From positions 1-54,993 of the forward strand of contig NZ_CP019330.1 in assembly GCF_001971705.1 (NCBI RefSeq): DNA of 54,993 nucleotides, given 5' to 3'. The DNA is from Natronorubrum daqingense (GTDB lineage: Archaea > Halobacteriota > Halobacteria > Halobacteriales > Natrialbaceae). Positions 1 through 19,969 of the stretch are shown here, one piece after another; positions within the stretch are counted from its first letter, which is position 1; each line of letters starts with the position of its first letter. The notes below the pieces were generated by a model. It had not been told where the DNA came from, searched no databases, and was given only the letters and a program-made list of their open reading frames with translations. Position numbers and translations under genes: made by a program.

Positions 1-3
1 CCA

Positions 4-1587
4 ATGTTTAGGAGAGAATTCATCAAAGCAGGCGCAGGAGCAACCGCACTCATCGCAACACCGGCGTTCGTCCCGGTACCGGCGCTCGGCAGCCACGACA
101 CCCTCACCGAGTTCGCACTCTCGGACCCCGAAATCGATCCGTACGGCGCGGATCACAACCCATCGTTCGTCGGCAGCTACGACGACGCTGACGACCGCGA
201 AGCGTTCGAGGCGTGGCTCGAGGATGATACCGATACCGGACGCATCGTCCGCGAGTACGACCATCTCGACCAGACCGCGTTCACGCTGTCGTGGTCCGAA
301 GCTGGCGTCTCACAACTGTGGGGTGGCCTCGAGCATCGATCGGGCGGCCTTGACGACCTGACCTACCTCGAGTTTGCAGACGCGAACGCCATCCTCGACC
401 ATCCAGAGCCGATCGAACCCGACGACCTCGTGAGCGAGTCGGCGTTCTCGCTCGAGACGGGCTGGCTCGAGCGCCAACTGCTCGCACTCGAGCTGGGCCA
501 ACTCGACGCCGAACCCGATATCGACGGCCTCGCCTTCGATGACGACGCACCCGAATCAACGCTCAGAGAGGCACGCCGACTCGTCGGCGCGGGCGATGGC
601 GTCCTCGAAGACACCAACCGCGGTGACGGCGTCACGGTCATCGTGATCGATACCGGTATCGAAGACCGCTCGATCTACGAAGACGAAAACGGCGATCGAC
701 GCATCCAACCGGAATCGACGGACTTCACGAGCGCGGGCGACCCGACGGTCGACGAGAACGGTATCGACACGGTCTCGGATGCCGACGGTCACGGCGATTG
801 GGTCTCGGCGTGCATCCTCGCGGATAACGACGATGACCGATACTCTGGATTCGCGCCCGAAGCCGACCTCGTGACGGCGAAAGCACTCGACGAAGATGGT
901 GGCGCGGTCGCGGATATCGTCGCGGGCGTCGACCTCGCTATCGACGTCGACGCAGACGTGATCTGCATGAGCCTCGGCAGCCCGCAATGGTCCGAAGCAC
1001 TCGCAGACGCGCTCGAGGACGCGTGGGATGCTGGCGCGTTCACGGTCGTCGCCTCTGGCAACGACCGCGTCGGAACGACGTTTACGGCTCATCCCGCCAG
1101 CGCCGAACATGGCCTTCCGGTCAACGCGACGAACGTCCCCGAAAGCGGCGACCGGGACGACACCCAAATCGCGAACTTCGGGAACGTTGGCCCGCATCCG
1201 GGTACGCAGGACTTCTCGAGTGGTGCCTCAGAAGGCGCGGGGCCGGAACTCGCAGCGCCGGGGATGCAGATCGAGATCGACCCCGTCGGGACGCTCACCG
1301 GAACGAGCATGGCCGCGCCGATGGTCGCCGGCGCGGCGGCGGTCCTCGCAGGCGAGGGGCACGATAACGAGGCCATCCACGACCGGCTACTCGAGTCGGC
1401 CTACCCCGTCGAACACTTCGGCGTCACGGAGTCCGAGTACGGCTTGCTCGATCTCGAGGCCGCACTCGAGGGCCGTGAACACGATGACGACCAGGCCGAC
1501 GTGCGCTCGGACAGTGCGCGCACGCGGGATGACTTCAACGAAGCGCTGTCGGTGAGTCGCGGGCGACTAATTTTGAGGCTGTTCTAA
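4..1587 (+). CDS. Tat-exported subtilisin-like serine protease (S8)
   Basis: This is a 527-residue secreted subtilase that should cleave peptides outside the cell. The N-terminus has a twin-arginine signal (RREFIK followed by a hydrophobic run to about residue 30). A propeptide-like region of about 170 residues follows. The catalytic set is visible: Asp216 in VIDTGIED, His263 in DGHGDWVSA, oxyanion Asn353 in ASGN and Ser435 in GTSMAAPMVAG. The His motif is a variant of the usual HGTHVAG. The start lies at the window edge, but the Tat signal makes ATG 4 convincing. The next gene starts 4 bases after the stop. A maturation role for nearby exported proteins is inference. Confidence 0.93.
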   Translation: MFRREFIKAGAGATALIATPAFVPVPALGSHDTLTEFALSDPEIDPYGADHNPSFVGSYDDADDREAFEAWLEDDTDTGRIVREYDHLDQTAFTLSWSEAGVSQLWGGLEHRSGGLDDLTYLEFADANAILDHPEPIEPDDLVSESAFSLETGWLERQLLALELGQLDAEPDIDGLAFDDDAPESTLREARRLVGAGDGVLEDTNRGDGVTVIVIDTGIEDRSIYEDENGDRRIQPESTDFTSAGDPTVDENGIDTVSDADGHGDWVSACILADNDDDRYSGFAPEADLVTAKALDEDGGAVADIVAGVDLAIDVDADVICMSLGSPQWSEALADALEDAWDAGAFTVVASGNDRVGTTFTAHPASAEHGLPVNATNVPESGDRDDTQIANFGNVGPHPGTQDFSSGASEGAGPELAAPGMQIEIDPVGTLTGTSMAAPMVAGAAAVLAGEGHDNEAIHDRLLESAYPVEHFGVTESEYGLLDLEAALEGREHDDDQADVRSDSARTRDDFNEALSVSRGRLILRLF

Positions 1588-1591
1588 GACC

Positions 1592-2458
1592 ATGGCTGGC
1601 TCAGTGACGCGTCGAGAGTACCTCCAGAGCACCGGGAGTGTCGCGTTTCTCGGCTGGGGGGCGTTCGATTCGGCGGATGACGCACTCGAGGACGAACCCG
1701 AACTCGAGTACGACGGCGACGCACCGGTCTTCCCCGACCATATTACGGAGACGCGAGACGATACAGACGAACTCGAGGAGTACGCGCCGAAACTCGTGAC
1801 GACGCCCGAAGCGCGCTCGGAAATGCGTGGCATGTACGGCTGGATCGCCGAAAGCGAGGAGTTCGACGTGACGGCGTACTACTACTGGACGCGCTACAAT
1901 ACCCAACGCAGTTCGCTGGCCTACGTCGGTCTCGATGTCGATGCGATTCGAGTGCCGTTCACTGACCGCGAACTGTTCGGCTTCGATTCGCACTACCTGG
2001 ACCACGAGCCCTATATCTCATTTGTGAACGACGACGGCACCGTCGAGCAAGCGGTCGCGACGGCAGGCCATCACTACGCGATGGAGCTCGATTCAGACTG
2101 GGGCAGTTTCACCGAAGACCGTGTGAGCGGGCGCGAGACGCACGCCAATCTGGCCGTCATCCGCCCGTGGAATCACTTCATGGATGCGCCGCGTGGCGAA
2201 CACGGCGATTTCGTGTTCAACTACGCGAGTTTCGGTAGCTGGCTCAACGAGTACGAGACGTGGTATCGAAACAATCGCTACGAGCGCACCGCCGATATCG
2301 CGGTCATGGACCCCTTCAGGTTCTACGATGACGGCGAGCAGGCCTACCGGGACCACTGGTGGGAGGCCGACGAGTTAGACGCACGCGTCGTGCGCGATAT
2401 CCGACTCCGGCGGATCACCGACCGCGACCAACTCCGGATCGAGGATTGGGACAGATGA
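1592..2458 (+). CDS. Tat-exported protein of unknown function
   Basis: This is a 288-residue protein with a Tat-type signal (TRREYLQSTG plus a short hydrophobic stretch). The mature part is rich in Asp, Glu, Tyr and Trp, with no domain I recognise. It follows the subtilase by 4 bases and is presumably co-transcribed. It probably works outside the membrane as a folded Tat substrate. No catalytic motif is evident. Confidence 0.8.
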   Translation: MAGSVTRREYLQSTGSVAFLGWGAFDSADDALEDEPELEYDGDAPVFPDHITETRDDTDELEEYAPKLVTTPEARSEMRGMYGWIAESEEFDVTAYYYWTRYNTQRSSLAYVGLDVDAIRVPFTDRELFGFDSHYLDHEPYISFVNDDGTVEQAVATAGHHYAMELDSDWGSFTEDRVSGRETHANLAVIRPWNHFMDAPRGEHGDFVFNYASFGSWLNEYETWYRNNRYERTADIAVMDPFRFYDDGEQAYRDHWWEADELDARVVRDIRLRRITDRDQLRIEDWDR

Positions 2459-2550
2459 CTGAGAACGCAAAACCACCGCCAGACCCACCGCCCGATCGAC
2501 CGCGCACAGCTACCGAACACTTAGCGATACAGACACACCATGCCACTTGA
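2455..2550 (+). CDS. possible 31-residue proline-rich peptide
   Basis: A 31-codon reading frame starts with an ATGA overlap on the stop of the upstream gene and ends 11 bases inside the next gene. It begins MTENAKPPPDPPPD. The overlap style matches genuine small genes elsewhere in this window, but the length gives no coding statistics. It may instead be a spurious frame in a short spacer. Confidence 0.3.
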   Translation: MTENAKPPPDPPPDRPRTATEHLAIQTHHAT

Positions 2551-3511
2551 AATCATACCGAATAGACAACTCAAAATCGACACACCCGACGGCGGAAGCG
2601 TCGTCTGGGGGGATGTCGACGGAGAGACGAGCATCCCTGGAACGTTCGGGCGAACGTCTTCGGGCGTGTTGCTCGGCCCACTCGAGATCGCCGTTCCAGA
2701 CGGCGAAACGCTCTGGATCGACGACCTCAGTTTCGAGGCCGAATACGACGGCGGCTGGTTTTCGCTAGGCCTCGTCGCCCCACTGGCGGCAGCCCCAATG
2801 GCTGACCGCGACGAGACTGAATCGAACCCGGTCAACCGACGCCACATTCTCACGCTACTGGCGGCAACCGTCGCTGCCGGTATGTTGTCGGTCAATGCGA
2901 GTGCTGACGAAGACGAAGACGAAGACGACGATGGTACAGTCGCCCTGTCGGTAGCCCGTCTCGAGATTGGCGATTCCGACCAACCGTTTTCGATTCGGAT
3001 CATCGACATCGTAGACGAAGTCTTGCCACCGACGACCGATGTCCTGGTTGATCAGGACGGTCGGCGGACCGGATCGGTCGGTGACAGCGACGAACGTGTT
3101 ACGATCGGTTCGGATGCCGAGACCGTTCGAATCTATCTCGAGGATAGCATCGGGCGGATATCGAAACTACTCGCGTGGGCACAGTCACACTTGCCCGGTG
3201 ACTCGAGTCTGACGTTCGAGCGCGAGTTGCCCGACGATGCCGATAGCTACGACGATGGCACAACAGTCGATCTGACCGATAACCCAGTACTCGTCAACTC
3301 AGTTGATGAGTCTGGCTACGATCGAACGACCCTCGAGATCGGCGAGACACAGATACCGAACGTCAGCGATGCGGACGCTGAAAGTACCACTGCTGGGGAG
3401 TGGGCACTCGAGGATGACACACTCGTCTATGGGGTTGGCGAGGACGCACCATCGGAGTCAGTGTGGACGCTCCGAACGCAACTCAGTTTCACACAAGCAC
3501 TCACAACATAA
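2540..3511 (+). CDS. protein with internal Tat-like signal, unknown function
   Basis: The frame runs 323 residues from ATG 2540. A Tat-like motif (NRRHILTLLAAT, then a hydrophobic run ending near NASA) sits about 100 residues in, preceded by an in-frame ATG at 2798. If 2798 is the true start, the product is an ordinary 237-residue Tat substrate. If 2540 is used, an 86-residue beta-rich segment precedes the signal, which would be unusual. After the signal come a DEDEDEDDD acidic stretch and a region with no recognised domain. Confidence 0.75.
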   Translation: MPLEIIPNRQLKIDTPDGGSVVWGDVDGETSIPGTFGRTSSGVLLGPLEIAVPDGETLWIDDLSFEAEYDGGWFSLGLVAPLAAAPMADRDETESNPVNRRHILTLLAATVAAGMLSVNASADEDEDEDDDGTVALSVARLEIGDSDQPFSIRIIDIVDEVLPPTTDVLVDQDGRRTGSVGDSDERVTIGSDAETVRIYLEDSIGRISKLLAWAQSHLPGDSSLTFERELPDDADSYDDGTTVDLTDNPVLVNSVDESGYDRTTLEIGETQIPNVSDADAESTTAGEWALEDDTLVYGVGEDAPSESVWTLRTQLSFTQALTT

Positions 3512-3513
3512 TC

Positions 3514-3759
3514 ATGACAGACGACACACTCGACCTAACGGTACTGGATGATGAGGGGGAAGAAGTTGACGATGCGGAAGTGACGGTGAATGGAGAAGAA
3601 GTCGGTGGGTCCGGAAGCGGTGGTCCACTCACTGAAAATGACGATGACGAACTCGAGCCAGAGGATGGACAGCCGATTCGGGCCTCGGGCGGATTGTACA
3701 TCCCCGAACTCGAGGAAGACCCAGATGACGGCAATCTATGGATACGGGGCGATCTGTAA
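3514..3759 (+). CDS. small acidic beta-rich protein
   Basis: This 81-residue protein starts at ATG 3514, just after the upstream stop; an upstream in-frame ATG at 3463 is inside the previous gene and is less likely. It opens with a segment reading like an Ig/carboxypeptidase-regulatory strand pattern (LTVLDDEGEEVDDAEVTV), then a Gly/Ser linker and an acidic tail. There is no signal peptide. Its stop shares one base with the next start (TAATG), so it is probably translationally coupled to the WD40 gene. Confidence 0.65.
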   Translation: MTDDTLDLTVLDDEGEEVDDAEVTVNGEEVGGSGSGGPLTENDDDELEPEDGQPIRASGGLYIPELEEDPDDGNLWIRGDL

Positions 3760-4880
3760 TGTCTGATTGGGAACTGCTTGAGTCCTTGGGCGAGTCGTCC
3801 GGTGACATCAATTCAGTCACGTTCTCCCCAGATGGTGAGTGGATCGCTTATACTGGGTCTGACAACGATGTCTACATCCACTCGATTGAGGACCTAGAAC
3901 ATGAAGAGACACTTAGAGAATCAGGTGGAACTGTCCATTCTGTCACGTTTTCCCCAGATGGTGAGTGGATCGCATACGGTGGGTCCAGAGACAATGTGTA
4001 TATCCATTCGACTGAGGACTGGGAATATGAAGAAACACTTACGGAAGCGAGTAATTCTGTCGAGTCCATATCCTTCTCACCAGATGGCGAGTGGATCGCT
4101 TACAGTGGTTCCAGTGGAGATGTAGACATTCATTCGACCGAGGATTGGGAATATGAAGAGACATTAACGGAGGATACTACCACTGTCAGCTCAGTCACAT
4201 TCTCACCAGATAGTGGGTGGATCGCCCATGGAGATTCTGATGATGAAGTCCACATCCATTCGACTGGGGACTGGGAACATGAAGAGACACTCACTGAAGC
4301 GAGCGGTAACATCCAGTCAGTCACTTTCTCACCAGAAGGAGAGTGGATTGCTTACGGGGGGTGGGTTTTTGACGGCGAAGTCTACATCCATTCGACTGAG
4401 GATTGGGCACATGAAGAGACACTCTCGGAAGCGAGTAACAGTATCGAATCTATTGCATTCTCCTCTGGTGATGAGTGGGTTGCTTATAACAGTGGTGACG
4501 AAGAAATACATATTCATTCGACAGAAGATTGGGAGTATGAGGCTACATTAACAGAATCAGGTGAAGATATTAACTCGGTTGAGTTCTCATCAGACGGGTA
4601 CCTAATTGCTTACGGCGGGGACGACGCGGAGGCACACATCCATACGACGCCTGAATTTGACGGCGACCCATACCCAATAGCTACTGCCAGTTACGAAACA
4701 AGTTATGGAACCACGTATGATATTCCACTCTACGACCCAGACGATATAGATGATTCATGGCTTCGCTTCCGCGTAGACGGTACTGTCTCGGTTGCAAAAC
4801 TCATCGATCCTGACAACGAACCACTTCGGGCCAGACAAGGTGCTGGCGAAGAAGTTCAGGGCGTTGAAACCGACACTTAA
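3759..4880 (+). CDS. seven-repeat WD40 beta-propeller protein
   Basis: This 373-residue protein carries seven tandem repeats of about 42 residues, each built on SVTFSPDGEWIAY, a turn, VYIHS, and EDWEYEETL. Seven repeats fit a closed seven-bladed WD40 propeller, a protein-interaction scaffold. There is no signal peptide or membrane segment, so it is probably cytosolic. A tail of about 80 residues after the last blade resembles a beta-sandwich. Start 3759 overlaps the upstream stop by one base; an upstream in-frame ATG at 3738 lies inside the previous gene. Base composition is visibly more AT-rich than in the flanks. Partner and function are unknown. Confidence 0.88.
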   Translation: MSDWELLESLGESSGDINSVTFSPDGEWIAYTGSDNDVYIHSIEDLEHEETLRESGGTVHSVTFSPDGEWIAYGGSRDNVYIHSTEDWEYEETLTEASNSVESISFSPDGEWIAYSGSSGDVDIHSTEDWEYEETLTEDTTTVSSVTFSPDSGWIAHGDSDDEVHIHSTGDWEHEETLTEASGNIQSVTFSPEGEWIAYGGWVFDGEVYIHSTEDWAHEETLSEASNSIESIAFSSGDEWVAYNSGDEEIHIHSTEDWEYEATLTESGEDINSVEFSSDGYLIAYGGDDAEAHIHTTPEFDGDPYPIATASYETSYGTTYDIPLYDPDDIDDSWLRFRVDGTVSVAKLIDPDNEPLRARQGAGEEVQGVETDT

Positions 4881-4898
4881 TCTAAAACGTATGATAAA

Positions 4899-5918
4899 AT
4901 GAAGGGGACTATTGATACCCAGAAAGTATGCAGAAGAACAGCTATGGCATCAATCGCGGGTTTTTTCGCGTCTATAGCCGGAAGTACGTTGTTCTCCTCA
5001 ACCGTGGGTGCAACAGACGATGGCCCTATTGAATTAGAAGTAGGTGCAACAATTCCTGATGGGTCCAATATCACACTCACCACCATCGACAAATCAGATG
5101 ATGAGGTGTCAAGCACGATCGACCTCAAGAATGGTGAACACACGTACGAAGTAGATGGCCTTGACCACTCGGACGAACCCGAGTATTACTGGCGTGCAGA
5201 GTATGAGACGGAAGGTGATAAGACACCATCACTTGAGCGCGTAGAGCTGATCACGCCAGACGACAGCGGACTCTTCTCGATACTCGATTTCGATTTTGAC
5301 TTCAGCTTTGACTTCGACTTTTGGCCGTTCAACGAAGCCGAGGGCGAAGTGCCACTTCTCTCCGGGTTTCGGCGCGGAACGAGCGGAGATGGCGATTCAG
5401 ATACCGTAAGATTCAGACAACGCGGTCATGTGGAATCATCGGCTAAAGAAAGCGGCGTCTGGAGTGAGTCTGAATTCGAAGAAGCTACGAAACGGGGCGT
5501 GGAGCTATCGGGCGGACGTCTGTCATTGATCGAGCTGGAACAGGGACGACCGACTGGGAAAACAGAGGTTAGCAGCCCCGAAGAGGCGCTCTCTCTCGAC
5601 ATCGAAGAACAGGAACAAGGGGATGCATCAAACCTCCATTTCGAATTCTCTGGGACCGATTCCACTGTTGACTCACACCCCGATCTTGATAGCGATATTG
5701 CTGGAATTGCGACCTACGATGGCGACCCTGTTTCAGACGCAAAATTCTACGTTGTGAACACAACAGAAGATACGTACGAAGAAACAGCATACAGCAATTC
5801 TGACGGTGAATTCTATATTGATGTTTCCGACTCAGATGCAGAATACGCCGTTTTTGGCGAAGTAGAAATCGACGGTGAAACGCAGACCAGCATGGCACAG
5901 GCGTCAGTGCTGATCTGA
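4899..5918 (+). CDS. exported protein with C-terminal carboxypeptidase-regulatory-like domain
   Basis: This 339-residue protein has a probable Tat signal (CRRTAMA followed by a hydrophobic run to VGATDD). Around residues 128-140 there is a low-complexity stretch of alternating Asp and Phe. The last 75 residues (IAGIATYDGDPVSDAKFYV to the end) look like a carboxypeptidase-regulatory/Ig-like beta-sandwich. The same fold pattern closes the downstream subtilase, so the two neighbours may share an attachment or partner domain. The gene is in the AT-richer 3.5-7.5 kb island. Confidence 0.75.
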   Translation: MKGTIDTQKVCRRTAMASIAGFFASIAGSTLFSSTVGATDDGPIELEVGATIPDGSNITLTTIDKSDDEVSSTIDLKNGEHTYEVDGLDHSDEPEYYWRAEYETEGDKTPSLERVELITPDDSGLFSILDFDFDFSFDFDFWPFNEAEGEVPLLSGFRRGTSGDGDSDTVRFRQRGHVESSAKESGVWSESEFEEATKRGVELSGGRLSLIELEQGRPTGKTEVSSPEEALSLDIEEQEQGDASNLHFEFSGTDSTVDSHPDLDSDIAGIATYDGDPVSDAKFYVVNTTEDTYEETAYSNSDGEFYIDVSDSDAEYAVFGEVEIDGETQTSMAQASVLI

Positions 5919-5948
5919 GATAACGATCTCATAAACTGAGCAATCATC

Positions 5949-7511
5949 ATGGTGAGCTACAGCCCAACCCTATTGGAAGAGCACGGCGAGAAACGAGCGA
6001 TAATTAACTTCGACCGGCCGGATGAGTACTACGGTCCGTGTGAGACGAGATCTGAGAAAATTGCCGAGTTGAAAGAGTGTTGTAACTCTACTCATGCCCC
6101 ACTCAAGGACTTTATCTCGAGCACTGCCGGTATCGAACTTCTGAGCGATCACTGGGCCGGATCAACTGCAACAGTACGGATCGACTTTAACACGTTCGAT
6201 GTAGACGATCTCGAGGACGTTGATTACGTCAAGAGTGTTGTGGTCGACGATGGAACACTCAAAATCAATTCCGACGATGGTGCTGATACTTATCTCCCAG
6301 GAGACGTTGATTGGTCGCTTGAACAAACGCAAGTCCATGAGTTTTGGACTGAATATGGGGCCCGTGGTGAAAATGTGAAGGTAGCAGTGACTGATACGGG
6401 AATCGATCCCGACCACGAAGCACTTGAGTTGTATACTGATGATCCTGATGATGAGACGTACCCTGGCGGATGGGCCGAATTCGACCTTGACGGAAATGAA
6501 ATCGAAGACAGCGAACCGTGGTACGATTTTTGGCACGGAATCGAAGTCTCGGGTCCAATAAAGGGAAAACCTCCAGAATCAGCGGACGAGGAGTACATGG
6601 GAGTCGCCCCTGAGTGCGATTTGATGATGGTGAAGATGAACGACCCCGATGAAACTGACACGACGACCCATTCGGCTATGATTGCGGCACTCGAGTGGTG
6701 CCTCGAAAATGGCGCAGATATCATAAATAGCAGCTGGGGGAATTACGCAAGACAATCCCCACCGTATGAATTAGACCTCTATTATGACATTTTCCAAGAC
6801 GCATTGGATATGAACTGCATCTCGGTTGGGTCCTCCGGGAACACGGACGAAGGGGGTGAAATAGGGCCGGCACCTGGGTCATACTACAATGCCATCAGCG
6901 TAGGCGGAGTCGAAGAGTCGGGCGAGATGTACGGCAGTTCTACGGGCCGAACAATTGAAGAATCCGATTGGGATGAATACCCTGATGAATGGCCAGATGA
7001 GTATATCATACCAGATATTACGGCCGGGGGTCGAAACGTCCCGACCACAACGGAAGACGATGAATATGGAACGGCATCCGGAACATCGTTCGCCGCCCCG
7101 ATCGTCACTGGCCACATCGCACTGCTCTTGTCCTACTCACGCACGCAAACAGAGTCGGATGCAGATATCAATGACATCATTTCCGCACTGAAAGGAACGG
7201 CGTGGAAGCCCGATGACTGGAGTGATGATGACTTTGAGGACGGATCCGAAGAAGCAGGCGAACACGACACTCGATATGGTTGTGGCATTGCCAAAGTGTT
7301 GGATGCGCAGGAAAAACTCCGAGATATGAGGTCTATCACGGGAGAGGTTATATTCAATTCAATACCGACTAACGATGCGAAAGTATATGTAATCGATCGC
7401 AACTCGAATGATCTTGCTGGCGTTTTGGAGCCTTCAGAGGGCGAATTCAGGTACGAGGGTGGCTCCAGCGACGACTCCTACCACATCGGCGTGGTGGCTG
7501 ACGATGATTAA
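5949..7511 (+). CDS. subtilisin-like serine protease without signal peptide
   Basis: This 520-residue S8 protease has Asp149 in VTDTGID, His196 in FWHGIEVSG, Asn298 in GSSGN and Ser380 in SGTSFAAPIVTG. The first 110 residues resemble an inhibitor-I9 propeptide, but no Sec or Tat signal precedes it and no better start is visible upstream. It may act in the cytosol or reach the outside with a Tat-exported neighbour. The last 60 residues (ITGEVIFNS onward) match the C-terminal domain of the gene before it. The His motif is atypical (usually HGTHVAG). Confidence 0.88.
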   Translation: MVSYSPTLLEEHGEKRAIINFDRPDEYYGPCETRSEKIAELKECCNSTHAPLKDFISSTAGIELLSDHWAGSTATVRIDFNTFDVDDLEDVDYVKSVVVDDGTLKINSDDGADTYLPGDVDWSLEQTQVHEFWTEYGARGENVKVAVTDTGIDPDHEALELYTDDPDDETYPGGWAEFDLDGNEIEDSEPWYDFWHGIEVSGPIKGKPPESADEEYMGVAPECDLMMVKMNDPDETDTTTHSAMIAALEWCLENGADIINSSWGNYARQSPPYELDLYYDIFQDALDMNCISVGSSGNTDEGGEIGPAPGSYYNAISVGGVEESGEMYGSSTGRTIEESDWDEYPDEWPDEYIIPDITAGGRNVPTTTEDDEYGTASGTSFAAPIVTGHIALLLSYSRTQTESDADINDIISALKGTAWKPDDWSDDDFEDGSEEAGEHDTRYGCGIAKVLDAQEKLRDMRSITGEVIFNSIPTNDAKVYVIDRNSNDLAGVLEPSEGEFRYEGGSSDDSYHIGVVADDD

Positions 7512-7661
7512 CTCACAACCAACACTCGAAATGTCACCCATGACCCACACCAAAAACACAATGAGCCGCTGGACTGCCGGAGGCGTCCCGCCACCCTACG
7601 GCTAACAGCCCGCCCAAACAGCACCGCCCACCAACCAACCCTTCCTTCAACCAACACTACA

Positions 7662-8693
7662 ATGAAATTCCAACGCTTCGCAGCGACAGCGATGGCTGCA
7701 CTCATGATCCTCTCGGTTATGGGCGCAGCGTTCGCAGGCACCGCAGCAGCAGACGAACATCACATCGAACTCGAGCTCGACGACGAAGACATCATCGACG
7801 AGTTCGAGGCCGACAGCGACCAGGAGATCGAGGCGACGATCGACGCCGACGGCGCTGACTTCGGCGAGGATGACACCGACACGCTCACCCTCAACGTGAC
7901 CGACGATGACGACCGCGAACACTTCGAACTCGAGGCGTCAGTCGACGACGGTGACGAAGACCACACGGTCGAATTCGACGCGTCGGACCTCGCAACGGTC
8001 CCGATCGACGCTGAGGACACGACCGACGTGACTGTCCACGTCACTGGCGAAGACGCCGACGGCGAGACGACGGACACCAGCGAGGAGGCTGACGTCGAGC
8101 TCGAGAGCACCAACGAGTACGCTTCGATGTACGTCGACGACGATGACGCTGAGACCGAGACCGACGAAGCCGGTATCGGCACGTCGACGCTCGATATGGT
8201 CTCCTTCGGCACGCTTGCCGACTCGGACGACACGGACATCTACACGCTCGAGGACGAGGTCGGCGTTGATGGCGACAACACGACGATCGCCGCTCACGAT
8301 GGCACCGGCGCGGACGCGTTCGACGACGCCGTCGATACGGACGACCTCTCGAGTGGCGACCTGATCACGGACGCCAACGCAGCCGTTGATGGAGACGCCG
8401 TGATGATGTTCTACGACGACGCAGACGACGATATCGTCGACGACAACGACACCTACGTCGTGATGGAGGACTACGACGAGTTCAGCGTTGAACTCGGTGA
8501 CGACCACGAGGACGCCGAGGACGTTGACGTGACGCTCGAGTCCCAGAGCTACGTCGACGCTGGCGTCAGCGCTGACGAGATGGGCGCGCTCTACCTCGAG
8601 CAGGCTGACTTCGGACTCTTCGACGCAACGTCTGAGTTCGGCGTGCTTGACGCGTTCAGCGGCTTCAGCGCGATGGAACTTCTCGGCCTCTAA
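7662..8693 (+). CDS. Sec-exported highly acidic protein
   Basis: This 343-residue protein has a classical Sec signal (FQRFAATAMAALMILSVMG, cleavage near TAAA-DE). The mature chain is extremely rich in Asp and Glu and has beta-strand-like periodicity typical of haloarchaeal surface proteins. No C-terminal anchor or PGF-type sorting motif is seen, so it may be released or held by partners. The family was not recognised. A structural envelope role is inference. Confidence 0.8.
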   Translation: MKFQRFAATAMAALMILSVMGAAFAGTAAADEHHIELELDDEDIIDEFEADSDQEIEATIDADGADFGEDDTDTLTLNVTDDDDREHFELEASVDDGDEDHTVEFDASDLATVPIDAEDTTDVTVHVTGEDADGETTDTSEEADVELESTNEYASMYVDDDDAETETDEAGIGTSTLDMVSFGTLADSDDTDIYTLEDEVGVDGDNTTIAAHDGTGADAFDDAVDTDDLSSGDLITDANAAVDGDAVMMFYDDADDDIVDDNDTYVVMEDYDEFSVELGDDHEDAEDVDVTLESQSYVDAGVSADEMGALYLEQADFGLFDATSEFGVLDAFSGFSAMELLGL

Positions 8694-10826: not shown

Positions 10827-11144
10827 ATGCTACTCACAACTATTGCGATAATCCTGCTTATTGCACTCGTTCTCGTGGTCATTTTCGACCGGCCGATCGT
10901 GACACCGATCCCGAAATCGGTCCTCGAGTTCGTCCGCCGGATCGGTAGCGGCTCGATACTTCTGACCGCGTGGCGAGCGCTGTTAGTTGTCGCACTCGTC
11001 GGCTTCTCGCTGGGGCTGGCCGCGACGGGGGGCATCGTCGCCGGCTTCATCGCGGCGATCGTGCTGACGATGTTGATTCAAGACCCAGTTCGCTCAGTCG
11101 TTCGCGACCTGTGGGATATGAATTTCGTGAGGGTGAATCCATGA
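10827..11144 (+). CDS. membrane protein, 106 residues
   Basis: The frame is open from 10758, but ATG 10827 follows a strong purine-rich ribosome site (AGGAGGG at 10811-10817) and gives a protein starting with a hydrophobic helix (TTIAIILLIALVLVVIF). Two further helices lie at about residues 45-90. The last four bases overlap the start of the next gene (ATGA). The family was not recognised. Confidence 0.62.
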   Translation: MLLTTIAIILLIALVLVVIFDRPIVTPIPKSVLEFVRRIGSGSILLTAWRALLVVALVGFSLGLAATGGIVAGFIAAIVLTMLIQDPVRSVVRDLWDMNFVRVNP

Positions 11145-12031: not shown

Positions 12032-12235
12032 ATGGGCCTCTTCCCCTCGTTCGACTTCGGAAACTGGGGCGGATCGCTCCTACTCATAACGCTCGCGATT
12101 CTCGTTGTCTCGTGGCTGGCGTTCACATTCTGGGGCTTTGCGGTCGTGTTGATCGTAGTCGCGGTTATCGCGCCACTCCTGTACTATACCGGGCTGGCTA
12201 TCGATAACTGGCTTCGGCATGGAGGGCCGCTGTAA
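12032..12235 (+). CDS. small membrane protein, 67 residues
   Basis: Two closely spaced hydrophobic helices (SLLLITLAILVVSWLAF and FAVVLIVVAVIAPLLYY) form a hairpin. The ATG abuts the upstream stop and the stop overlaps the next ATG by one base, so the three frames are coupled. Function is unknown. Confidence 0.6.
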   Translation: MGLFPSFDFGNWGGSLLLITLAILVVSWLAFTFWGFAVVLIVVAVIAPLLYYTGLAIDNWLRHGGPL

Positions 12236-12489
12236 TGCCGTCGTTCATTCTCTTACTGGCGCTGGTCATCCTGGCCCCACTCGCATTGGCGATTATCTTC
12301 CCCGATGTGACCGAGCAGATCTACCGCTGGGCAGTGATGTTTCGCACCGTCGGCGGGGCGATCATACTCGTCGTCACGATCGGGCTCTTTCTCTCAACGG
12401 GCAATATCACGCTCATCGCCCTTGGGGGCGTTCTCGCGGCGTATGGCGTCTGGAAAGTAGTCTACGACACAAACGCGACAGGGGTGTGA
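12235..12489 (+). CDS. small membrane protein, 84 residues
   Basis: Three hydrophobic segments are predicted by eye, at residues 1-22, 40-55 and 58-75 (FILLLALVILAPLALAIIF first). It follows the previous gene with a TAATG overlap and precedes a soluble gene by 6 bases. The family was not recognised. Confidence 0.6.
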   Translation: MPSFILLLALVILAPLALAIIFPDVTEQIYRWAVMFRTVGGAIILVVTIGLFLSTGNITLIALGGVLAAYGVWKVVYDTNATGV

Positions 12490-12495
12490 GACAAC

Positions 12496-13002
12496 ATGGA
12501 ACAACACTTTGACGAACACGTTCAGGCACAGTTCAGAGCCAAACTCGACAACATTCAACAGGAGCGAATCAGTGCGCCGACCGACGTCGACGAGTGGGCA
12601 GAGCAGAAGCTAACCGAAGTCCGTGCAGAGATTCTTCGCTTCCAGCGCTCGAACTCGTACCGGCGGTTCCTGGTGCGTTATCTCTCGGAGTCCTATGATG
12701 ACCTTCAAGACCCGACTACCGACCGCGAAGAGCCCCTGTGCACGTGCGAGAACAACTGTCTGTTGATGCAGGGCAAACTACCGCCGACGGTGCTCGACGC
12801 GCCGACGATCTCGAAAGGGATCGAGGAGTACGCCCACAACCACCCGGGCTCGCCAGCAGGGTTGTTCGATGCAGACACCGCCTATAGAGAAGCTATAGCC
12901 AGCGTACTTTCGGACCTCGAGTTGATCTGGATGGCCCTGAAGAACGGTGAAATCCCTACTTCAGAGCGTGGGGATACGGAGGTCGAGTATGTCGGAGCGT
13001 GA
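12496..13002 (+). CDS. cytosolic protein with Cys cluster, ATPase partner candidate
   Basis: This 168-residue soluble protein has a helical, charged N-terminal half with the opening MEQHFDEHVQAQF. A CTCENNC cluster near residues 76-82 could bind metal. A helical C-terminus follows. It overlaps the ATPase gene by 14 bases; the ATPase opens with a similar phrase (TFGEHVQYQ), suggesting a shared N-terminal docking segment. A role as ATPase cofactor is inference. Confidence 0.6.
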   Translation: MEQHFDEHVQAQFRAKLDNIQQERISAPTDVDEWAEQKLTEVRAEILRFQRSNSYRRFLVRYLSESYDDLQDPTTDREEPLCTCENNCLLMQGKLPPTVLDAPTISKGIEEYAHNHPGSPAGLFDADTAYREAIASVLSDLELIWMALKNGEIPTSERGDTEVEYVGA

Positions 13003-14989
13003 GCAAACGTTTGGTGAGCACGTCCAGTATCAAACGCAGAATCAGCAACAACAGTTCAAGCGTCAAGTGATTCGGTCAGCAACAGAGAGGGGCAATCAGG
13101 CAATTGTCCTCGGGAAATCAGAGCAGTTAGCCGATATCACTGACCGCCATCTGGTACCGAACCTACTCGAGGGCGGCTCGGCACGAGAACTTCGACGCTG
13201 GCGTGAGCGGATCGACGAGCACGAGTTCGATGCTGCGGCGTTGTGGTCGTTCCTCAATCACAGCGATCACAACCCAGAGACCGTCCACCGTGCGTTCACG
13301 TCACTCCAGTCGATTGCGATGCACCGTGGTATCGTCGACGAGTCGATGCGAAACTACGCTCCAGTGACTGGGTTCGGGATGAACATGGGGAAGATGTTCA
13401 AGACGCCGAAGTACCGCGTCAACGGAGAGGTGCAGATTGCATCCTACCACGCTGGAGAGACGAAGACCCTCTACAACGGCGAGACTGGTGAAGGGAAGAG
13501 TACGGCCCTCTCGACAGAGGTTGCCGACCGGTGGATGGCCAGTTGTGCCAACGAGTGGTTCGACGGCCGCGAATACCGGACTGAGGACTTCAAAATTGTC
13601 GACTTAGTCGACACCGACATGGTCGAAAACGGTGTGTACGATATCCCACAACAGCAAGACGTCCTCCGCGATGTTCGGTCTGAAATGGGGTTCCCCAAGG
13701 ACTATAACGGGATAGATGGCTTCGAAAAGCCGAACCTCGAGTTGTTGGTCCCGTTGACTCGAGACTTTCAGGATGAAGAGATTCCGATCGGTGACGATGG
13801 CGACACGATCATCGTCGTGTTCACAATCGCGGCGTCGGACCTGACCAAACGCTCGTTGAAAAACTTCGTGGCGGGGACGACCGGCGAGCAACAGAAAGTC
13901 ATCGGGACCTGTTACGACCGTCTCGAGGCCAGCAAAAACGATTGGACGTTGAAAGACCTCGCGAAAGAGGTCCTGTCGATGGAGGGGATCAACGACTCGT
14001 TCAAACGCCGCGCGCTACATCAGATTGAGACGCTACAACAGACCGGATTCGTTCGGGACAAGAAGTGCCCGCACCGTCTCGAGTGGGGTGAGGTCTTCCG
14101 AGATACCGACACCATCACCGCGTTCACACAGAAGTTCATGAGCGAGTACGACCAGAAACTCATGGTTCTGTCCTACCTCTTCCACTCGGTCTACCACGAA
14201 CGCGAGGGCCGCGAAGACTTACCGCCGGCAGTGGCAGTCGCTCGTGAGCTGCATGAAGTCGTTCCGCACTCGCAGGAATCGAACGGGACGGAACGCGAGC
14301 AATCGCTCCAGAAGGCGATCGTGGGTGAGTTGTCGTACATCCTTCGCAAGCAACGGAAGCAGTCACTCGAGTTTATCTGCGACACACAGGACATCACAGA
14401 CATCAAACGCGGGATTCGGAAGCGATTCAACCGCGCTGTGACGTTCTCGACGCACGAAGACGCGCTCGAGGAACTGTTCGACAAGGTCGTCGGCAACAAG
14501 TCGCTGTTTCGCTCCTATCACCGGTCGATTCAGACGAATACAGTCGGTCGGGGGACTGTGCTCGGGAAAACGGTGCCGAACAACGAGGACGGTAGCGCAT
14601 TCCTGTCTCAAGTGCAGTTCGCACCGCCACCGTGGCACGTCTTTGATGACGACGACCACGATACGGGCCTCCATGCACGCGTTGAGTACACCAGTGAGGA
14701 GTGGGGTGAGCACGAGTGGAACACACGTCTCCCCGACCACCTCGAGTTAGACGTCGACGAGCTCAAGCGCGAGCAAGAAGCCGACGACGATGACGGACTC
14801 TCTGCGAAGGAACAGAAAGACCAGCACAAGAAAGAGGCGAGAAGACGCCGAGAGATGGGCGAATCGGTTCAACAGGTCCGTGAGGCCGTTCCGAACAACC
14901 CGAACACTGGAAATCCGTACTCTGAACGGACCATCCACGAGTGGACGAAAGACGTGTACCAACAACTGGTCAATGAGTCCACCTCGTAA
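12989..14989 (+). CDS. HerA/VirB4-like P-loop ATPase with C-terminal HTH
   Basis: This 666-residue protein probably powers DNA or particle translocation. Walker A is GETGEGKST (residues 164-172). The Walker B position reads AVAVARELHEVVP, where conjugation and HerA ATPases usually have DE-H, so it is a degenerate form. About 50 residues on, ICDTQDITDIKRGIRKRF matches the sensor-like TQ motif of that superfamily. The C-terminus (about 620-666) resembles a resolvase-type HTH (SERTIHEWTKDVY). Start 12989 overlaps the previous gene; a frame-open start at 12947 is less likely. Its neighbours are membrane proteins on both sides. VirD4-like coupling protein is an alternative. Confidence 0.75.
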   Translation: MSEREQTFGEHVQYQTQNQQQQFKRQVIRSATERGNQAIVLGKSEQLADITDRHLVPNLLEGGSARELRRWRERIDEHEFDAAALWSFLNHSDHNPETVHRAFTSLQSIAMHRGIVDESMRNYAPVTGFGMNMGKMFKTPKYRVNGEVQIASYHAGETKTLYNGETGEGKSTALSTEVADRWMASCANEWFDGREYRTEDFKIVDLVDTDMVENGVYDIPQQQDVLRDVRSEMGFPKDYNGIDGFEKPNLELLVPLTRDFQDEEIPIGDDGDTIIVVFTIAASDLTKRSLKNFVAGTTGEQQKVIGTCYDRLEASKNDWTLKDLAKEVLSMEGINDSFKRRALHQIETLQQTGFVRDKKCPHRLEWGEVFRDTDTITAFTQKFMSEYDQKLMVLSYLFHSVYHEREGREDLPPAVAVARELHEVVPHSQESNGTEREQSLQKAIVGELSYILRKQRKQSLEFICDTQDITDIKRGIRKRFNRAVTFSTHEDALEELFDKVVGNKSLFRSYHRSIQTNTVGRGTVLGKTVPNNEDGSAFLSQVQFAPPPWHVFDDDDHDTGLHARVEYTSEEWGEHEWNTRLPDHLELDVDELKREQEADDDDGLSAKEQKDQHKKEARRRREMGESVQQVREAVPNNPNTGNPYSERTIHEWTKDVYQQLVNESTS

Positions 14990-15250: not shown

Positions 15251-15577
15251 ATGACAAACCATCAACAGAGAGCCACCGGCTCGCTCGAAGTCACACGGCC
15301 GCTGACGCCCAACGGCAACGGCGTCAACCTGTATCTTCCGCCGGAGTTCGTCACGCACCTCGGGTTTCCACTCGAGCCGGGCGGCGACACAACGGCGGTT
15401 ACCGTGCCCGACGTCGGCGTCATCCTCTTTCCCGGCACCGACCCCGACCTACCGAGCGAGATCGACGTCCGACCGGCCGACGAGTACCGCGTAACGACTG
15501 ACACAAACACTGATTCACGAACGATGATCCACACCGAAACAGCAGACGCCGATCGAGGTGACAACGATGGCGCTTGA
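15251..15577 (+). CDS. small acidic protein, possibly AbrB-like
   Basis: This 108-residue protein has an N-terminal half (SLEVTRPLTPNGNGVNLYLPPEFV onward in short strands) that loosely resembles a swapped-hairpin AbrB-type fold with a VNLYLPPEF strand. The C-terminal half is polar and Thr/Asp-rich. It is the first gene of the operon and overlaps the next by 11 bases. The family assignment is weak. Confidence 0.5.
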   Translation: MTNHQQRATGSLEVTRPLTPNGNGVNLYLPPEFVTHLGFPLEPGGDTTAVTVPDVGVILFPGTDPDLPSEIDVRPADEYRVTTDTNTDSRTMIHTETADADRGDNDGA

Positions 15578-16571
15578 ACGCGCACGCGAATGGGCCGGCC
15601 AGAAACTCCGGCCAAAGCAGTACGTCGACGAAGAGAACGCGAAGACGCCGTACGAAACGCAAGACCCGCACACCTGGCGTGACGAGGCCGCGCCGTCGTT
15701 TCGAGACAAACTGGCCCAACGAAAGTACCGCATCCTCTCGAAATCGTTCGTCCTACTCTGTCTGTTGGGCGTCGGTATCGCCGGCATGCGGAGTTTCTTC
15801 CCCGGGATCTACTACTCCGAGGCCGTCCGAACGCTCGTCGCAGTTGTGACAATCGTCGTCGTTACGGGATTGCTCACGATCAACTGGATGCTCAAACGCC
15901 TCGAGCACTTCGACTGGTTGATCCTCAACTTGCCTGGCGGCGTCGAAGTCTACCTCGGCGAGTATACCACGACCAACGGCGGCGAGGAACCGATCTTCAA
16001 ACCGTTGCGCGGATTCACGCTCTGGGGAACCGTCGGCAATCACTACGAGCTGGGCGACCTCTCCGATGACTTCGCACGCTCGTTCGCGAAGAAAGATCGG
16101 AAAGCAGACGACCCAGTTCGAATGGGCCTTCCCAAAGAGGCTGACGAACAATCGGTGTCGACGTGGTACGGGACCGTCTTGTCGGTTGTCTCCGACGGCG
16201 TCGAGCCCGATGCAACCTCTCCAGAGGTGGACGTCCGCGTCTGGCCATCCGCGAGAGACCACGATGACACGATTGACGGACTGATGGACCTCGTGCGCAC
16301 GAAAGAGCGTCGTATCGATGATCTTCAGAAAGAGGTCTCAGACCTTCGCGAATCCCGGAATAAGTACCGACACGAGGCGAATAAGACGCGTCAAGAAGTG
16401 CGTGACGAACTGGTCGACAGTCAGAAAGAGATTTTCGAGTCGATCAACCCGAGCGTGTCGATGGCTGCCGGGCAAGCGTCACAGAACCAGCACACGCAGA
16501 CGCGTTCGAACGGCACAACCGACCCAGATCCAGTGATGCAAGATACAATGGAGGCGATGAGTAATGAATAG
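15567..16571 (+). CDS. two-helix membrane protein with cytosolic coiled coil
   Basis: This 334-residue protein uses ATG 15567 (the frame extends to GTG 15558). A basic N-terminal 60 residues precede two membrane helices (FVLLCLLGVGIAGM and LVAVVTIVVVTGLLTIN). A beta-rich cytosolic domain follows, then a long heptad-like coiled coil (about residues 240-300, ERRIDDLQKEVSDLRESRNK) and a polar tail. It overlaps the next gene by 8 bases. Architecture suggests a scaffold of a membrane machine; no family was recognised. Confidence 0.68.
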   Translation: MALERAREWAGQKLRPKQYVDEENAKTPYETQDPHTWRDEAAPSFRDKLAQRKYRILSKSFVLLCLLGVGIAGMRSFFPGIYYSEAVRTLVAVVTIVVVTGLLTINWMLKRLEHFDWLILNLPGGVEVYLGEYTTTNGGEEPIFKPLRGFTLWGTVGNHYELGDLSDDFARSFAKKDRKADDPVRMGLPKEADEQSVSTWYGTVLSVVSDGVEPDATSPEVDVRVWPSARDHDDTIDGLMDLVRTKERRIDDLQKEVSDLRESRNKYRHEANKTRQEVRDELVDSQKEIFESINPSVSMAAGQASQNQHTQTRSNGTTDPDPVMQDTMEAMSNE

Positions 16572-18108
16572 CGTCGGGCGACTGCTTACAGTGGTGGCGA
16601 TGCTGGCGCTGATCACGTCACTCGTCGGCGCGGGCATGGCCGGTACAGCCGTTGCAGATAACCAGACCGACGCCGATCTCGAGGTCGAACAGCCCTACGC
16701 CGACGGTGACGTGAACATCGACACGTCGGGCAACTACACCACATACGAAGTTGCCGGGTCGTCGCAGTTACTCACACTCGAGGGCGTCGACGAGAACGCA
16801 ACCGTCCTCGATTACGGCACCGAAGAGAGCGAGGCACACCTTAGCGAGCACGACTCGTTCGACGCCTACGAGTTCGAAACTGATAGCGACGGCACCTATC
16901 ACGTCTATTTCGCCATCGAATACGAGCAGGATAGCGACGACGGCAACGAAACCGAGACGGTTCGCGAGGATCACGTCGCCCAACTCTCGGTTTCCGATAC
17001 CGATACGCAAATCGTCGCCGGTGAGACGCTCGATGAGTATCAGAGCGATGCCGACCGCTGGTCGAACTGGGAGAGTGACGTCCGGGCCATCGCTGGCGAT
17101 GACGTCGACGTCGATCAACAGACCGACCTTGCCGGGACGCTGTTGAACCTGCGTCACAACCCGACCGAGGCCCTCACTGGCGAGTTCCTCGGGATCGTGT
17201 TGATGCTGTTCATCACCACGAGCGGGCTGGCTGTGTTGGCACTGTTCGGACTCTACCACCTCGTCGTGACGCGCCAACTCCGAAAACGGACGAATGAGCG
17301 CGAATCACTCGAGGCTGAAGAAGCCGATCTCGAAGAGAAACTGACCGAGCTCGACGACCAGAAACGGAATCGCTTGCTCGTGAACACGACGATGTTCGAC
17401 CATCTCGAGGACGAATGGAGTGCCCGAGCGATGCACGAGGATCTTGGCGAGGATGCCATGAGTGCATGGCTCAACTTCACACAGTTGGTCGGCGCAGGCA
17501 ATCTGCTCAAGGACCGACTGATTGCGATGGGGAAAGATGGGTATCGAGCCGCTGTCACCCGGGGTTCGGACGACCAGTATGCCACTGCACGACTGGTCCA
17601 CCCACAGACCGACCCCGAGTGTAGCGACGACGAAGAACTGGTCGCACTCGAGGAGAAAGACAAGATTAGCGCGGTCGCTGACGCAATCGCCGTCGACGAT
17701 ACCGAGTTGGTCGAGTACGATCTTCGCGAGCACGACACCCGACTGACCGAGATGGGGCCAGAACTCAGCGCCCCCGACTCGGTCGACGAGCTGGTCGAAG
17801 AACTCGATGCCGAACTGCGACGCTTCCAGGGCAACGAGGAAGAGTATACGAAGTACCTCCTCGAGTTCGTCGAGCACGTCCGCGAGCATCCGTTCACGGA
17901 CGCCCATGGCCGGCCGAAACGCCTTCGATACGTCCTCTCGTCCTGGCTCAAGACCGCGCAGATCAACCGCGATATGTTCGGCATGCCGCTGGCCGATATG
18001 CACGCCGAGTTCCTCGAAAAGCTGTTACAAGATCACGATCCGGCCGAAGACGCCGATATCGAGATTGAACAACACCGGAAAGGGGTGAAGCAGAATGCTG
18101 GCGACTGA
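16564..18108 (+). CDS. signal-peptide membrane protein with ectodomain and cytosolic coiled coil
   Basis: This 514-residue protein has a Sec signal (TVVAMLALITSLVGAGMAG), an acidic ectodomain of about 180 residues, one membrane helix (IVLMLFITTSGLAVLALFGLY, about 215-235), then a coiled coil (SLEAEEADLEEKLTELDDQK) and a 240-residue cytosolic domain. This topology couples outside to inside and fits a transmembrane strut of a secretion or transfer complex. It overlaps both neighbours (8 and 14 bases). Confidence 0.7.
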   Translation: MNSVGRLLTVVAMLALITSLVGAGMAGTAVADNQTDADLEVEQPYADGDVNIDTSGNYTTYEVAGSSQLLTLEGVDENATVLDYGTEESEAHLSEHDSFDAYEFETDSDGTYHVYFAIEYEQDSDDGNETETVREDHVAQLSVSDTDTQIVAGETLDEYQSDADRWSNWESDVRAIAGDDVDVDQQTDLAGTLLNLRHNPTEALTGEFLGIVLMLFITTSGLAVLALFGLYHLVVTRQLRKRTNERESLEAEEADLEEKLTELDDQKRNRLLVNTTMFDHLEDEWSARAMHEDLGEDAMSAWLNFTQLVGAGNLLKDRLIAMGKDGYRAAVTRGSDDQYATARLVHPQTDPECSDDEELVALEEKDKISAVADAIAVDDTELVEYDLREHDTRLTEMGPELSAPDSVDELVEELDAELRRFQGNEEEYTKYLLEFVEHVREHPFTDAHGRPKRLRYVLSSWLKTAQINRDMFGMPLADMHAEFLEKLLQDHDPAEDADIEIEQHRKGVKQNAGD

Positions 18109-19969
18109 CGCCTTCTTGCAGGCCGGTGGCAGTGGTGCGTCGACGGCACAACTGGCTATCGCAGTCGGTGTTATCGCAGCGGCGTTCCTATTCCTTGCCG
18201 TCGCCACGTGGCGCTCGCAGTACGTCGGACTCTCGAGTGAACAGGCGGCTCATAAGAGCGCGCTGAAATCCGCGTTCGAAGCCCAACAGGCGACATCGCT
18301 GGCGATCCCCACCGACGCCGACTTTCGGAGTTATCGCGGTCGAATCCGCTCGCTGTGGTCCAACGATCCCGAGATTGATGACCACACGACGATTCGAGAG
18401 GCAATGGCGGCCGTGCACCGGTCGCTCTTGGATTCGTGGACGTCGCTTTCCGGGCGCGTTCCGAAACTCGCTATCTGGCTCGTCGAGGAAGGTATTGCCA
18501 TCCTGGTTCTCGGTGCGTTGGCCGTCGTCTCGATCGAGCAGTGGGAGTCGTTGTTCAGTGCTGAAACCGGCCGGCCAGACGGAACGACCGTTATCGACAC
18601 CGTTGTCTCAGTGACGACACAGACGCTCGCGACCGGGCAGACGCTGTTCGGGATGTTTCCCTACGGTGAAGTCGTCTGGGCGCTGGGACTTGGTTACGGC
18701 CTGTTGGCCTACGAGTTGCTCTACGTCCATTGGTACGTCATCGGCCTGGTGTTGATTCTCGGCGGCGTCTCGCTCGCGCTGTTGGATTACGCCACGCCGT
18801 CGGTCGACGCAACGCCACACCTTACCGACCGTGGTCTTGGCTACCTGTTCGTTCAAGCAGTGGTCGCCGTGTGGGCGGCTGGTGTCATCCCGACGATGAT
18901 CGGGCAGGCGACCGGCGACCCGACTGCCGAGACGGTGTTCGCAACGATTGGCTTTCTCGCAGCGTTCGTCACCGCGCTCGCGATGGTTGGATTCGGCCTG
19001 TGGGCGGCGTTCAACCATCTTCGATTCCGTGCGTTGAACGCGGCGACCGAGCGCGACCTCGAGTCGTGGTTGCTCGTCGCCTATCTCGCCGCGTGTCGGA
19101 TCTACGCGACGATTGCAGCGATTGCGGCCACGTTGATCCCAGTCTATCTCGGGGTCGTGCTTTTGAACGGACGGCTGATCGAGGTCTGGGCGGCGTTCTG
19201 GGCTGGCAGTACCGATATCCAGATCGTTGCCGGGTTGCTCTTTATCGGCGTCGTCGCCGTCCTCGCATGGGAGATTCAAGACGTCTGGCCAGATCTTCGG
19301 GCGTCGATCGGACACACGCTTTCGAGTCGGTCGGTTCGACTCGCGTTGTTCGGTCGTGCAATGCCGTTTGGCGTCATCTTCTTTGCGTATCTGATGGCGA
19401 TTGCGTTCGAACTGTCGGTGCTGGTCGCTGCGATCGTGGCCCTGCTGTCCGGTGTGGCGGCGCGGCTCGGCTACCTGTTGCTCATGCGAGCGCGATACCG
19501 ATTGCAGTTGTTCGAACCGCCGGAGCAGACGCCAAACCGAATCCTGATCGAAGCCTACACGATCGAGGATGCTGACGGCACGGAGCGGTACATCGCGACG
19601 GTCAACCGCGAACGGATTGCACGCGACGACATCGACTCGCTCGTTGATGAAGTCCTCGAGCACGCCGAGTCACTGGCCGATGACGGCCAGTACGCAACGA
19701 CGTTGGGACAGCACTACGCCACGAATCTCTTCGAGTACGGTATCGTCGGCGAGGAGACGTCCCGAAAGAAGCTGCGTGAGCGCGTTCGAAAGCACGTCTA
19801 CACACCGCTCAAGCAGAACAACGCGCGTATTGAGGAGTCGGATATTGAAGACAATCTCGAGGAGTACCCCGACTCGATCGTTGAAGAGCGCCTTCAGAAG
19901 TTCAGGACGTACGGCACCCGTGACGGGAAGGTGTTCCGTCGAGACGGGTATTTCGTCCTCGAGCGGTGA
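18095..19969 (+). CDS. polytopic membrane protein, possible channel component
   Basis: This 624-residue protein has roughly ten hydrophobic helices between residues 10 and 470, then a soluble C-terminal domain of about 150 residues (from IEDADGTERYIATV) ending in a winged-helix-like REDGYF-type strand. Polytopic proteins of this size next to a VirB4-like ATPase are reminiscent of VirB6-type channel proteins, but no homology can be claimed by eye. It closes the + strand operon; the stop is 15 bases from a convergent gene. Confidence 0.65.
   Translation: MLATDAFLQAGGSGASTAQLAIAVGVIAAAFLFLAVATWRSQYVGLSSEQAAHKSALKSAFEAQQATSLAIPTDADFRSYRGRIRSLWSNDPEIDDHTTIREAMAAVHRSLLDSWTSLSGRVPKLAIWLVEEGIAILVLGALAVVSIEQWESLFSAETGRPDGTTVIDTVVSVTTQTLATGQTLFGMFPYGEVVWALGLGYGLLAYELLYVHWYVIGLVLILGGVSLALLDYATPSVDATPHLTDRGLGYLFVQAVVAVWAAGVIPTMIGQATGDPTAETVFATIGFLAAFVTALAMVGFGLWAAFNHLRFRALNAATERDLESWLLVAYLAACRIYATIAAIAATLIPVYLGVVLLNGRLIEVWAAFWAGSTDIQIVAGLLFIGVVAVLAWEIQDVWPDLRASIGHTLSSRSVRLALFGRAMPFGVIFFAYLMAIAFELSVLVAAIVALLSGVAARLGYLLLMRARYRLQLFEPPEQTPNRILIEAYTIEDADGTERYIATVNRERIARDDIDSLVDEVLEHAESLADDGQYATTLGQHYATNLFEYGIVGEETSRKKLRERVRKHVYTPLKQNNARIEESDIEDNLEEYPDSIVEERLQKFRTYGTRDGKVFRRDGYFVLER

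Follow-up and report, generated by a model that had tools for sequence, protein, structure and literature searches.

Gene content of contig C4

The window, meaning the whole stretch of DNA analyzed, is the entire 54,993-bp contig C4 of the four-contig, 3.8-Mb genome of Natronorubrum daqingense (referred to in the following as G000). Its features are collected in Table 1. All genes in the first 19,969 bp lie on one strand, as an earlier reading of the sequence alone had stated. That sequence-only reading placed an envelope or transfer module within these 20 kb and suggested that a surface propeller encoded at the far end might belong to it. The propeller gene is indeed the first gene of the block, the homologue of pR1SE ORF6, but the proposed extent needed correction: the block related to the pR1SE vesicle-plasmid core starts across the contig ends, running continuously through 50478–54991/1–19969, and includes a non-core insert at 2540–7511. 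Once the ends of C4 are joined, the ORF6 stop (54991) and the ORF7 start (4) are a few bases apart, and the same tight junction is the arrangement in circular relatives, suggesting that C4 is most likely a circular plasmid that was opened between these two genes.

The backbone of C4 includes Cdc6/Orc1 and ParA, along with two each of tyrosine recombinases and DNA methyltransferases; when the surroundings of the Cdc6 gene were searched for an origin, weak repeats were all that emerged. An archaeal type IV pilin gene is located on the minus strand at 48349–48915 (PF07790, 1e-22). Pilin genes were present on six of the nine relative plasmids that were fetched, and are not mentioned in the accessible text of PMC10818511.

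Table 1. Coordinates of core and backbone features of C4. RS names are pR1SE locus-tag numbers.
Coordinates	Strand	Feature	Support
50478..51194	+	Conserved gene, ORF5 position upstream of ORF6	Profile finds counterpart in 16 other elements
51209..54991	+	ORF6 homologue	phmmer 3e-106 to pR1SE ORF6, 1.8e-249 to Halosolutus; propeller Pfam matches
4..1587	+	ORF7 homologue, Tat-exported S8 subtilase	PF00082 8e-33; 4e-80 to pR1SE ORF7
1592..2458	+	ORF8 homologue, Tat-exported	tblastn matches in 15 plasmids including pR1SE
2540..7511	+	Variable insert	Tat protein, WD40 propeller, beta-domain protein, second subtilase
7662..8693	+	ORF9 homologue, acidic Sec-exported protein	Profile joins pR1SE ORF9; hhalign P100
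9457..10236	+	Homologue of pR1SE HXZ11_RS00065, Tat protein, real start about 9532	hhalign P100
10970..12031	+	ORF17 homologue, membrane-anchored, real start about 11141	hhalign P97.9
12032..12235	+	Small membrane protein, RS90 position	Position only
12235..12489	+	RS95 homologue, small membrane protein	hhalign P93.7
12496..13002	+	Candidate ORF21 counterpart	Best match ORF21 but P34.6
12947..14989	+	Type II ORF25, HerA/VirB4-type ATPase, real start about 12989	hhalign to type I ORF25 P99.1–99.2
15251..15577	+	RS100 homologue	hhalign P97.0; phmmer 3e-7 to Halosolutus type I
15558..16571	+	ORF22 homologue, 2 membrane helices and coiled coil	hhalign P97.5
16564..18108	+	ORF23 homologue, exported N-domain, membrane helix, coiled coil	hhalign P96.4
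18095..19969	+	ORF24 homologue, about 9 membrane helices	hhalign P97.5
20236..21345	-	Tyrosine recombinase adjoining core	PF00589 8e-14
24517..25431	-	ParA partition ATPase	PF13614 1e-28
45176..46246	-	Cdc6/Orc1 replication initiator	Pfam matches AAA and Cdc6_lid

Cluster 1 and its insert

Plasmid pR1SE of Halorubrum lacusprofundi was shown to move in vesicles holding the plasmid's own proteins, and its 40 relatives, the apHPVs, have a core of two clusters, cluster 1 (ORF6–9) and cluster 2 (ORF17, 21, 23, 24 and 25), whose gene order is reported to be the same throughout the complete elements (PMC10818511). ORF6, ORF7, ORF8 and ORF9 of C4 matched pR1SE-like plasmids in ordinary or iterated sequence searches, and the ORF6-7-8-9 order of the apHPVs is kept, with ORF9 set apart by the insert. 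The counterpart of ORF9 is the Sec-exported acidic protein that had already been picked out from the sequence, rather than the product of the gene adjoining ORF8. C4 ORF6, with 1260 aa, has a signal peptide, an N-terminal propeller and a C-terminal hydrophobic stretch, and is a candidate for the major surface or coat protein.

ORF8 has invariant alignment columns H134-x2-D137-x-E139, H160 and H184, the first of which form an NLP-like metal-site motif that aligns with the GHRHDWE site of NLP 3ST1. The same structure was the best PDB profile match of ORF8, with an E-value (0.28) that is not significant alone. A structural match between ORF8 and NLP proteins has been published (PMC10818511); our profile match is in line with it and supports but does not prove it. 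AlphaFold models of the cluster 2 ATPase and ORF8, built from 5–6 sequences, were poor (pLDDT 55 and 48), and the fold match of the low-confidence ORF8 model to 3ST1 (prob 0.30) serves only as a pointer.

Of the exported proteins proposed from the sequence, the four Tat-type substrates were recovered, with N-termini at 4, 1592, 4899 and 9457; an internal one in the gene at 2540 makes the count four or five. The two S8 subtilases (4–1587 and 5949–7511) and the WD40 propeller (3738–4880) were likewise confirmed. The propeller and the second subtilase were ruled out as core genes because both lie in the insert, which is absent from the relatives. Over most of its length the insert has a GC content of 0.475–0.55, lower than its surroundings, and its genes have no or few homologues among 27 other elements.

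Cluster 2 is homologous to that of pR1SE

We refer to cluster 2 of the C4 kind as type II and to pR1SE-like cluster 2 as type I. Gene families were built separately for each type, from loci with a type II ATPase and from six type I plasmids, and all pairs were compared by hhalign; the pR1SE sequence (NZ_KX687704) was compared directly. For the ATPase, ORF17, ORF22, ORF23 and ORF24, homology to type I was visible only in this profile-profile comparison, unlike that of cluster 1, which ordinary searches had picked up. Each C4 cluster 2 family paired best with its positional pR1SE counterpart, all other pairings scoring 78.5 or less, and the homologues of ORF17, ORF22, ORF23, ORF24 and ORF25 gave P96.4–99.2. 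For ORF25, the type II and type I families aligned over 534 columns with an E-value of 1e-19 and about 16% identity. This pairing of profiles, with ATPases so dissimilar, indicates that C4 cluster 2 is homologous to that of pR1SE yet deeply diverged. The sequence-only reading had supposed a strategy similar to that of pR1SE; the relationship is stronger than that, being one of homology in both clusters. No homology to RS90 was detected by hhalign for the protein at 12032–12235. The ORF21 candidate adjoins the ATPase in all 17 type II elements.

The HerA/VirB4-like ATPase stood up to this analysis with a corrected start, and carries the motifs GETGEGKS (Walker A), RELHEVVPH and DTQ. Like HerA, VirB4 and TrwB it has P-loop motifs, and it resembles them remotely in profile and fold, but it differs from them in having additional regions, helical at the N-terminus and HTH-like at the C-terminus, and it gave no significant sequence match to solved structures. 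Given the poor structure models, its fold is assigned from motifs, distant profile similarity and weak fold matches (HerA with prob 1.00 but E 5e-3, and also VirB4), the latter being pointers from a low-confidence model. HerA-like ATPases serve in DNA repair and defence too. Scans of sequence collections with single proteins returned nothing beyond the alignment query itself, and the full 17-row alignment was too diverse for use as a scan query. The three larger membrane proteins noted before (genes at 15558, 16564 and 18095) have two, two and nine predicted hydrophobic helices, respectively. Seven or more small membrane proteins had been counted; we found five (10236, 10604, about 10827–11144, 12032 and 12235).

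Gene order and distribution of the two types

Type II was found in 17 elements and the type I order in 14. The type I order is 17-90-95-100-21-22-23-24-25 (11 of 11, plus G000 C3, G090 C35 and the seen part of G287), and the type II order is 17-90-95-21-25-100-22-23-24 (17 of 17, some small genes being undetected in individual elements and ORF24 being lost at a contig end in G362). The ATPase precedes ORF22 in every type II element, whereas it is the last gene in all 14 of type I. Conserved gene order had been put forward as a check against pR1SE: it holds for ORF6-7-8-9 but not for the ATPase. In five type II elements, namely pNPA70 (Natrinema pallidum), the 39-kb Salinigranum rubrum plasmid, the Halomontanus rarus KZCA124 plasmid, Natronocalculus pAArc-St2 and G145, genes for a MoxR-type AAA ATPase and a VWA protein separate ORF25 from ORF22, and C4 lacks both of these genes; the four plasmids have the type II order together with cluster 1, like C4. 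Across the 17 elements, the type II ATPase frame is open at 24–44% identity, implying selection.

In the plasmid collection, the C4 ATPase matched only three plasmids, at ~30% identity, each with cluster 1 also. Used as a single query against 391 Halobacteria genomes, it gave 15 clear matches including itself. Among the same genomes, ORF8 (counted at ≥100 bits) was present in 41, type I ORF25 in 27 and type II ORF25 in 15, with both types in G000 and G090; these counts leave out weak extra ATPase matches, which were to the C-terminal HTH-like region or to type I ORF25s. An ATPase of either type accompanied ORF8 in 39 of the 41 (Fisher p 4e-50), a single genome had an ATPase without ORF8, and two (G297 and G024) had cluster 1 remnants with neither ATPase. 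The clusters occur jointly, and the scattering of genes without the ATPase that would have spoken against a module was not seen. With type I models alone, 13 of the 41 ORF8 genomes would appear ATPase-free.

When the chromosomal copies were searched for tRNA attachment sites, three tRNAs turned up close to a single element (G017). In the type II loci of G017 and G305 (L039, L054), the ORF22-23-24 block is inverted with respect to the ATPase, as would befit an invertible or separately moved sub-block. In a chromosomal type II element (G145 C1:2412313-2418516, L036), ORF6 and ORF7 form a single 6.2-kb open frame, either a fusion or a sequencing error. Two type II elements are filed as viral contigs in IMG/VR (IMGVR_UViG_3300046051_000081 and _000044; L066, L067); no complete apHPV had been found in that database (PMC10818511).

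Cluster 2 was exchanged as a block

In a tree of ORF7 and ORF8, types I and II were intermixed, with eight type changes, no fewer than with shuffled labels. Type II formed one clade in 0 of 200 bootstrap trees, and its monophyly was rejected (AU p 3e-52). Three pairs of elements have similar cluster 1 regions beside opposite cluster 2 types. The DNA of G295 (type II) and pHTUR05 (type I) is 85.6% identical along a 3.9-kb part of cluster 1; at the ORF9 side the two are 80% identical, have no DNA similarity in cluster 2, and are again 80% identical just beyond. pNPA70 (II) and Halomontanus TS33 (I) have 66–69% DNA identity through ORF6–9 and again past cluster 2. Contigs C24 (II) and C35 (I) of G090 are 85% identical through ORF7-8, and the type II ORF24 of C24 is immediately followed by a C-terminal ORF25 fragment of type I origin (246 aa, 68% identical), at the site held by ORF25 in type I. 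We read this fragment as a recombination scar left when a type I block was replaced by type II.

C4 itself is a mosaic whose two clusters have different relatives: cluster 1 groups with pHALXA03, pHTUR05, Halosolutus and G362, and cluster 2 groups near Natronocalculus (G054) and one IMG/VR contig. Forcing C4 with G362 in the cluster 2 tree was rejected (p 4e-7), as was forcing C4 with G054 in the cluster 1 tree (p 1e-5); both p values are nominal, the two-row groups having been chosen after a quick first tree. At the level of sequence, these comparisons show that cluster 2 has been exchanged as a unit between such plasmids. The swaps suggest that cluster 2 acts as a functional unit and that few of its contacts with cluster 1 would have to be closely fitted. 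A complete type I element is present on contig C3 of the host (ORF6 79722–83168 to ORF25 58353–60821), and the presence of both types in one cell provides an opportunity for exchange. On C3 (L068), a second, partial type I ORF25 (56585–58252) directly adjoins the intact copy.

Relation to the described apHPVs

The published operational criterion for an apHPV is at least five of ORF6, 8, 17, 21, 23 and 24 detected by HMM (PMC10818511). We imitated these HMMs with models from pR1SE, pHTUR05 and pHALXA03 together, or from all type I elements, and a 50-bit cut-off. C4 reached 50 bits for ORF6 and ORF8 only, short of five of six, and all fetched type II elements reached at most those two, whereas type I controls reached four, in cases fetched without cluster 1, and up to six. 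C4 also departs from the published cluster 2 order ORF17-21-23-24-25, in that its ATPase gene is flanked by the ORF21 position and ORF22 and does not follow ORF24 as in pR1SE. Further differences from pR1SE are a cluster 2 below 50 bits by plain HMM and the propeller and second subtilase inserted between ORF8 and ORF9. The two plasmids are alike in the order of ORF6-7-8-9, in having counterparts of ORF17, RS95, RS100, ORF22, ORF23, ORF24 and ORF25, in size and nearby integrase, and, as inferred for C4, in circularity. The hhalign comparisons indicate common descent with pR1SE for ORF17, 22, 23, 24 and 25. C4 falls outside the published operational definition, yet belongs to a sister lineage by common descent of both clusters.

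Because type II elements score on ORF6 and ORF8 only, they would be missed with such HMMs or read as having cluster 1 alone. The published survey lists 38 incomplete elements and 34 with cluster 1 alone, suggested as possible remnants (PMC10818511), and some of the latter may be type II. Type II, about half as common as type I in the 391 genomes, shifts the element counts and may account for some "incomplete" elements. The module had been described as undescribed-looking; cluster 1 is the already described apHPV cluster, and what appears to be new is the form and gene order of cluster 2, for which we found no description in the literature searched, including papers after PMC10818511.

Proposed working of C4

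Taken together, the results make it likely that C4 represents a whole circular plasmid from a second pR1SE-like lineage, in which cluster 1 encodes vesicle proteins and type II cluster 2 a DNA-loading membrane complex. Vesicle release, DNA loading and the role of each protein in C4 are drawn by analogy with pR1SE, the one plasmid for which core proteins have been published from plasmid-carrying vesicles (PMC10818511). Based on that proteomics, the exported, vesicle-borne products of cluster 1 would coat and mature the vesicle, with ORF6 as the surface propeller, ORF7 as a maturation protease, ORF8 as an NLP-like membrane-active protein and ORF9 as an acidic coat. Type II ORF22, 23 and 24, with the small helical proteins, would form a membrane complex around the HerA/VirB4-type ATPase, whose most likely task is to pump the plasmid DNA into vesicles as they bud or to recruit it to them; a role for the ATPase in DNA loading is a published prediction (PMC10818511).

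The best-surviving alternative, which we nevertheless regard as improbable, is conjugation-like transfer by cell contact, the ATPase and membrane proteins forming a channel and the exported proteins acting as adhesins. A Thermoanaerobacter VirB4 is indeed among the fold matches of the low-confidence ATPase model, and C4 has the pilin gene described above. However, no relaxase or mating-pair gene was detected among 40 C4 proteins scanned with Pfam (a set leaving out small ORFs), nor any known pilus-assembly gene among the scanned proteins, the three related plasmids with an ATPase match are typed non-mobilizable, and the homologous pR1SE moves in vesicles with structural proteins that are homologues of those of C4 (PMC10818511). 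It is slightly less probable still that C4 is a decayed or domesticated element in which cluster 2 is dead and the genes are kept as host surface genes: elements with cluster 1 alone have been interpreted as remnants (PMC10818511), and G297 and G024 carry remnants of that sort, but every core reading frame of C4 is intact and its ATPase type appears to be under selection. An enveloped, capsidless virus of the pleolipovirus kind merits as little credence, for although two type II clusters are filed as viral and a particle built from a membrane vesicle would resemble a pleolipovirus in function, the ATPase, ORF24 and ORF8 had no match in 50,697 phage records and no PHROG match was informative. 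As for a capsid-bearing virus, Pfam, PHROG and phage-collection scans of C4 proteins revealed no capsid, portal or terminase, bearing out the earlier statement that capsid and known conjugation markers beyond the ATPase are lacking.

Returning to the vesicle plasmid reading, the only described family was believed to have one fixed core, to which a second packaging cluster is now added. We lean towards a broader view in which vesicle plasmids consist of two exchangeable modules, surface and loading, the loading cluster existing in two deeply diverged, mutually replacing forms, and in which many cluster-1-only "remnants" would be intact elements with the second form. The natural swaps point to the genes that act as a unit, and the second type opens the function of cluster 2 to direct experiment.

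Two other C4 genes have relatives on these plasmids. A 263-aa gene at 49231–50022 (+) is closely matched in pHTUR05, pNPA70 and G202 (1e-104 to 1e-107), in each case ahead of ORF6, its relatives occurring with both cluster 2 types. A 1067-aa protein encoded at 40626–43829 (-) has DUF5817 and winged-helix matches, and a DUF5817 protein is also found on the Salinigranum relative.
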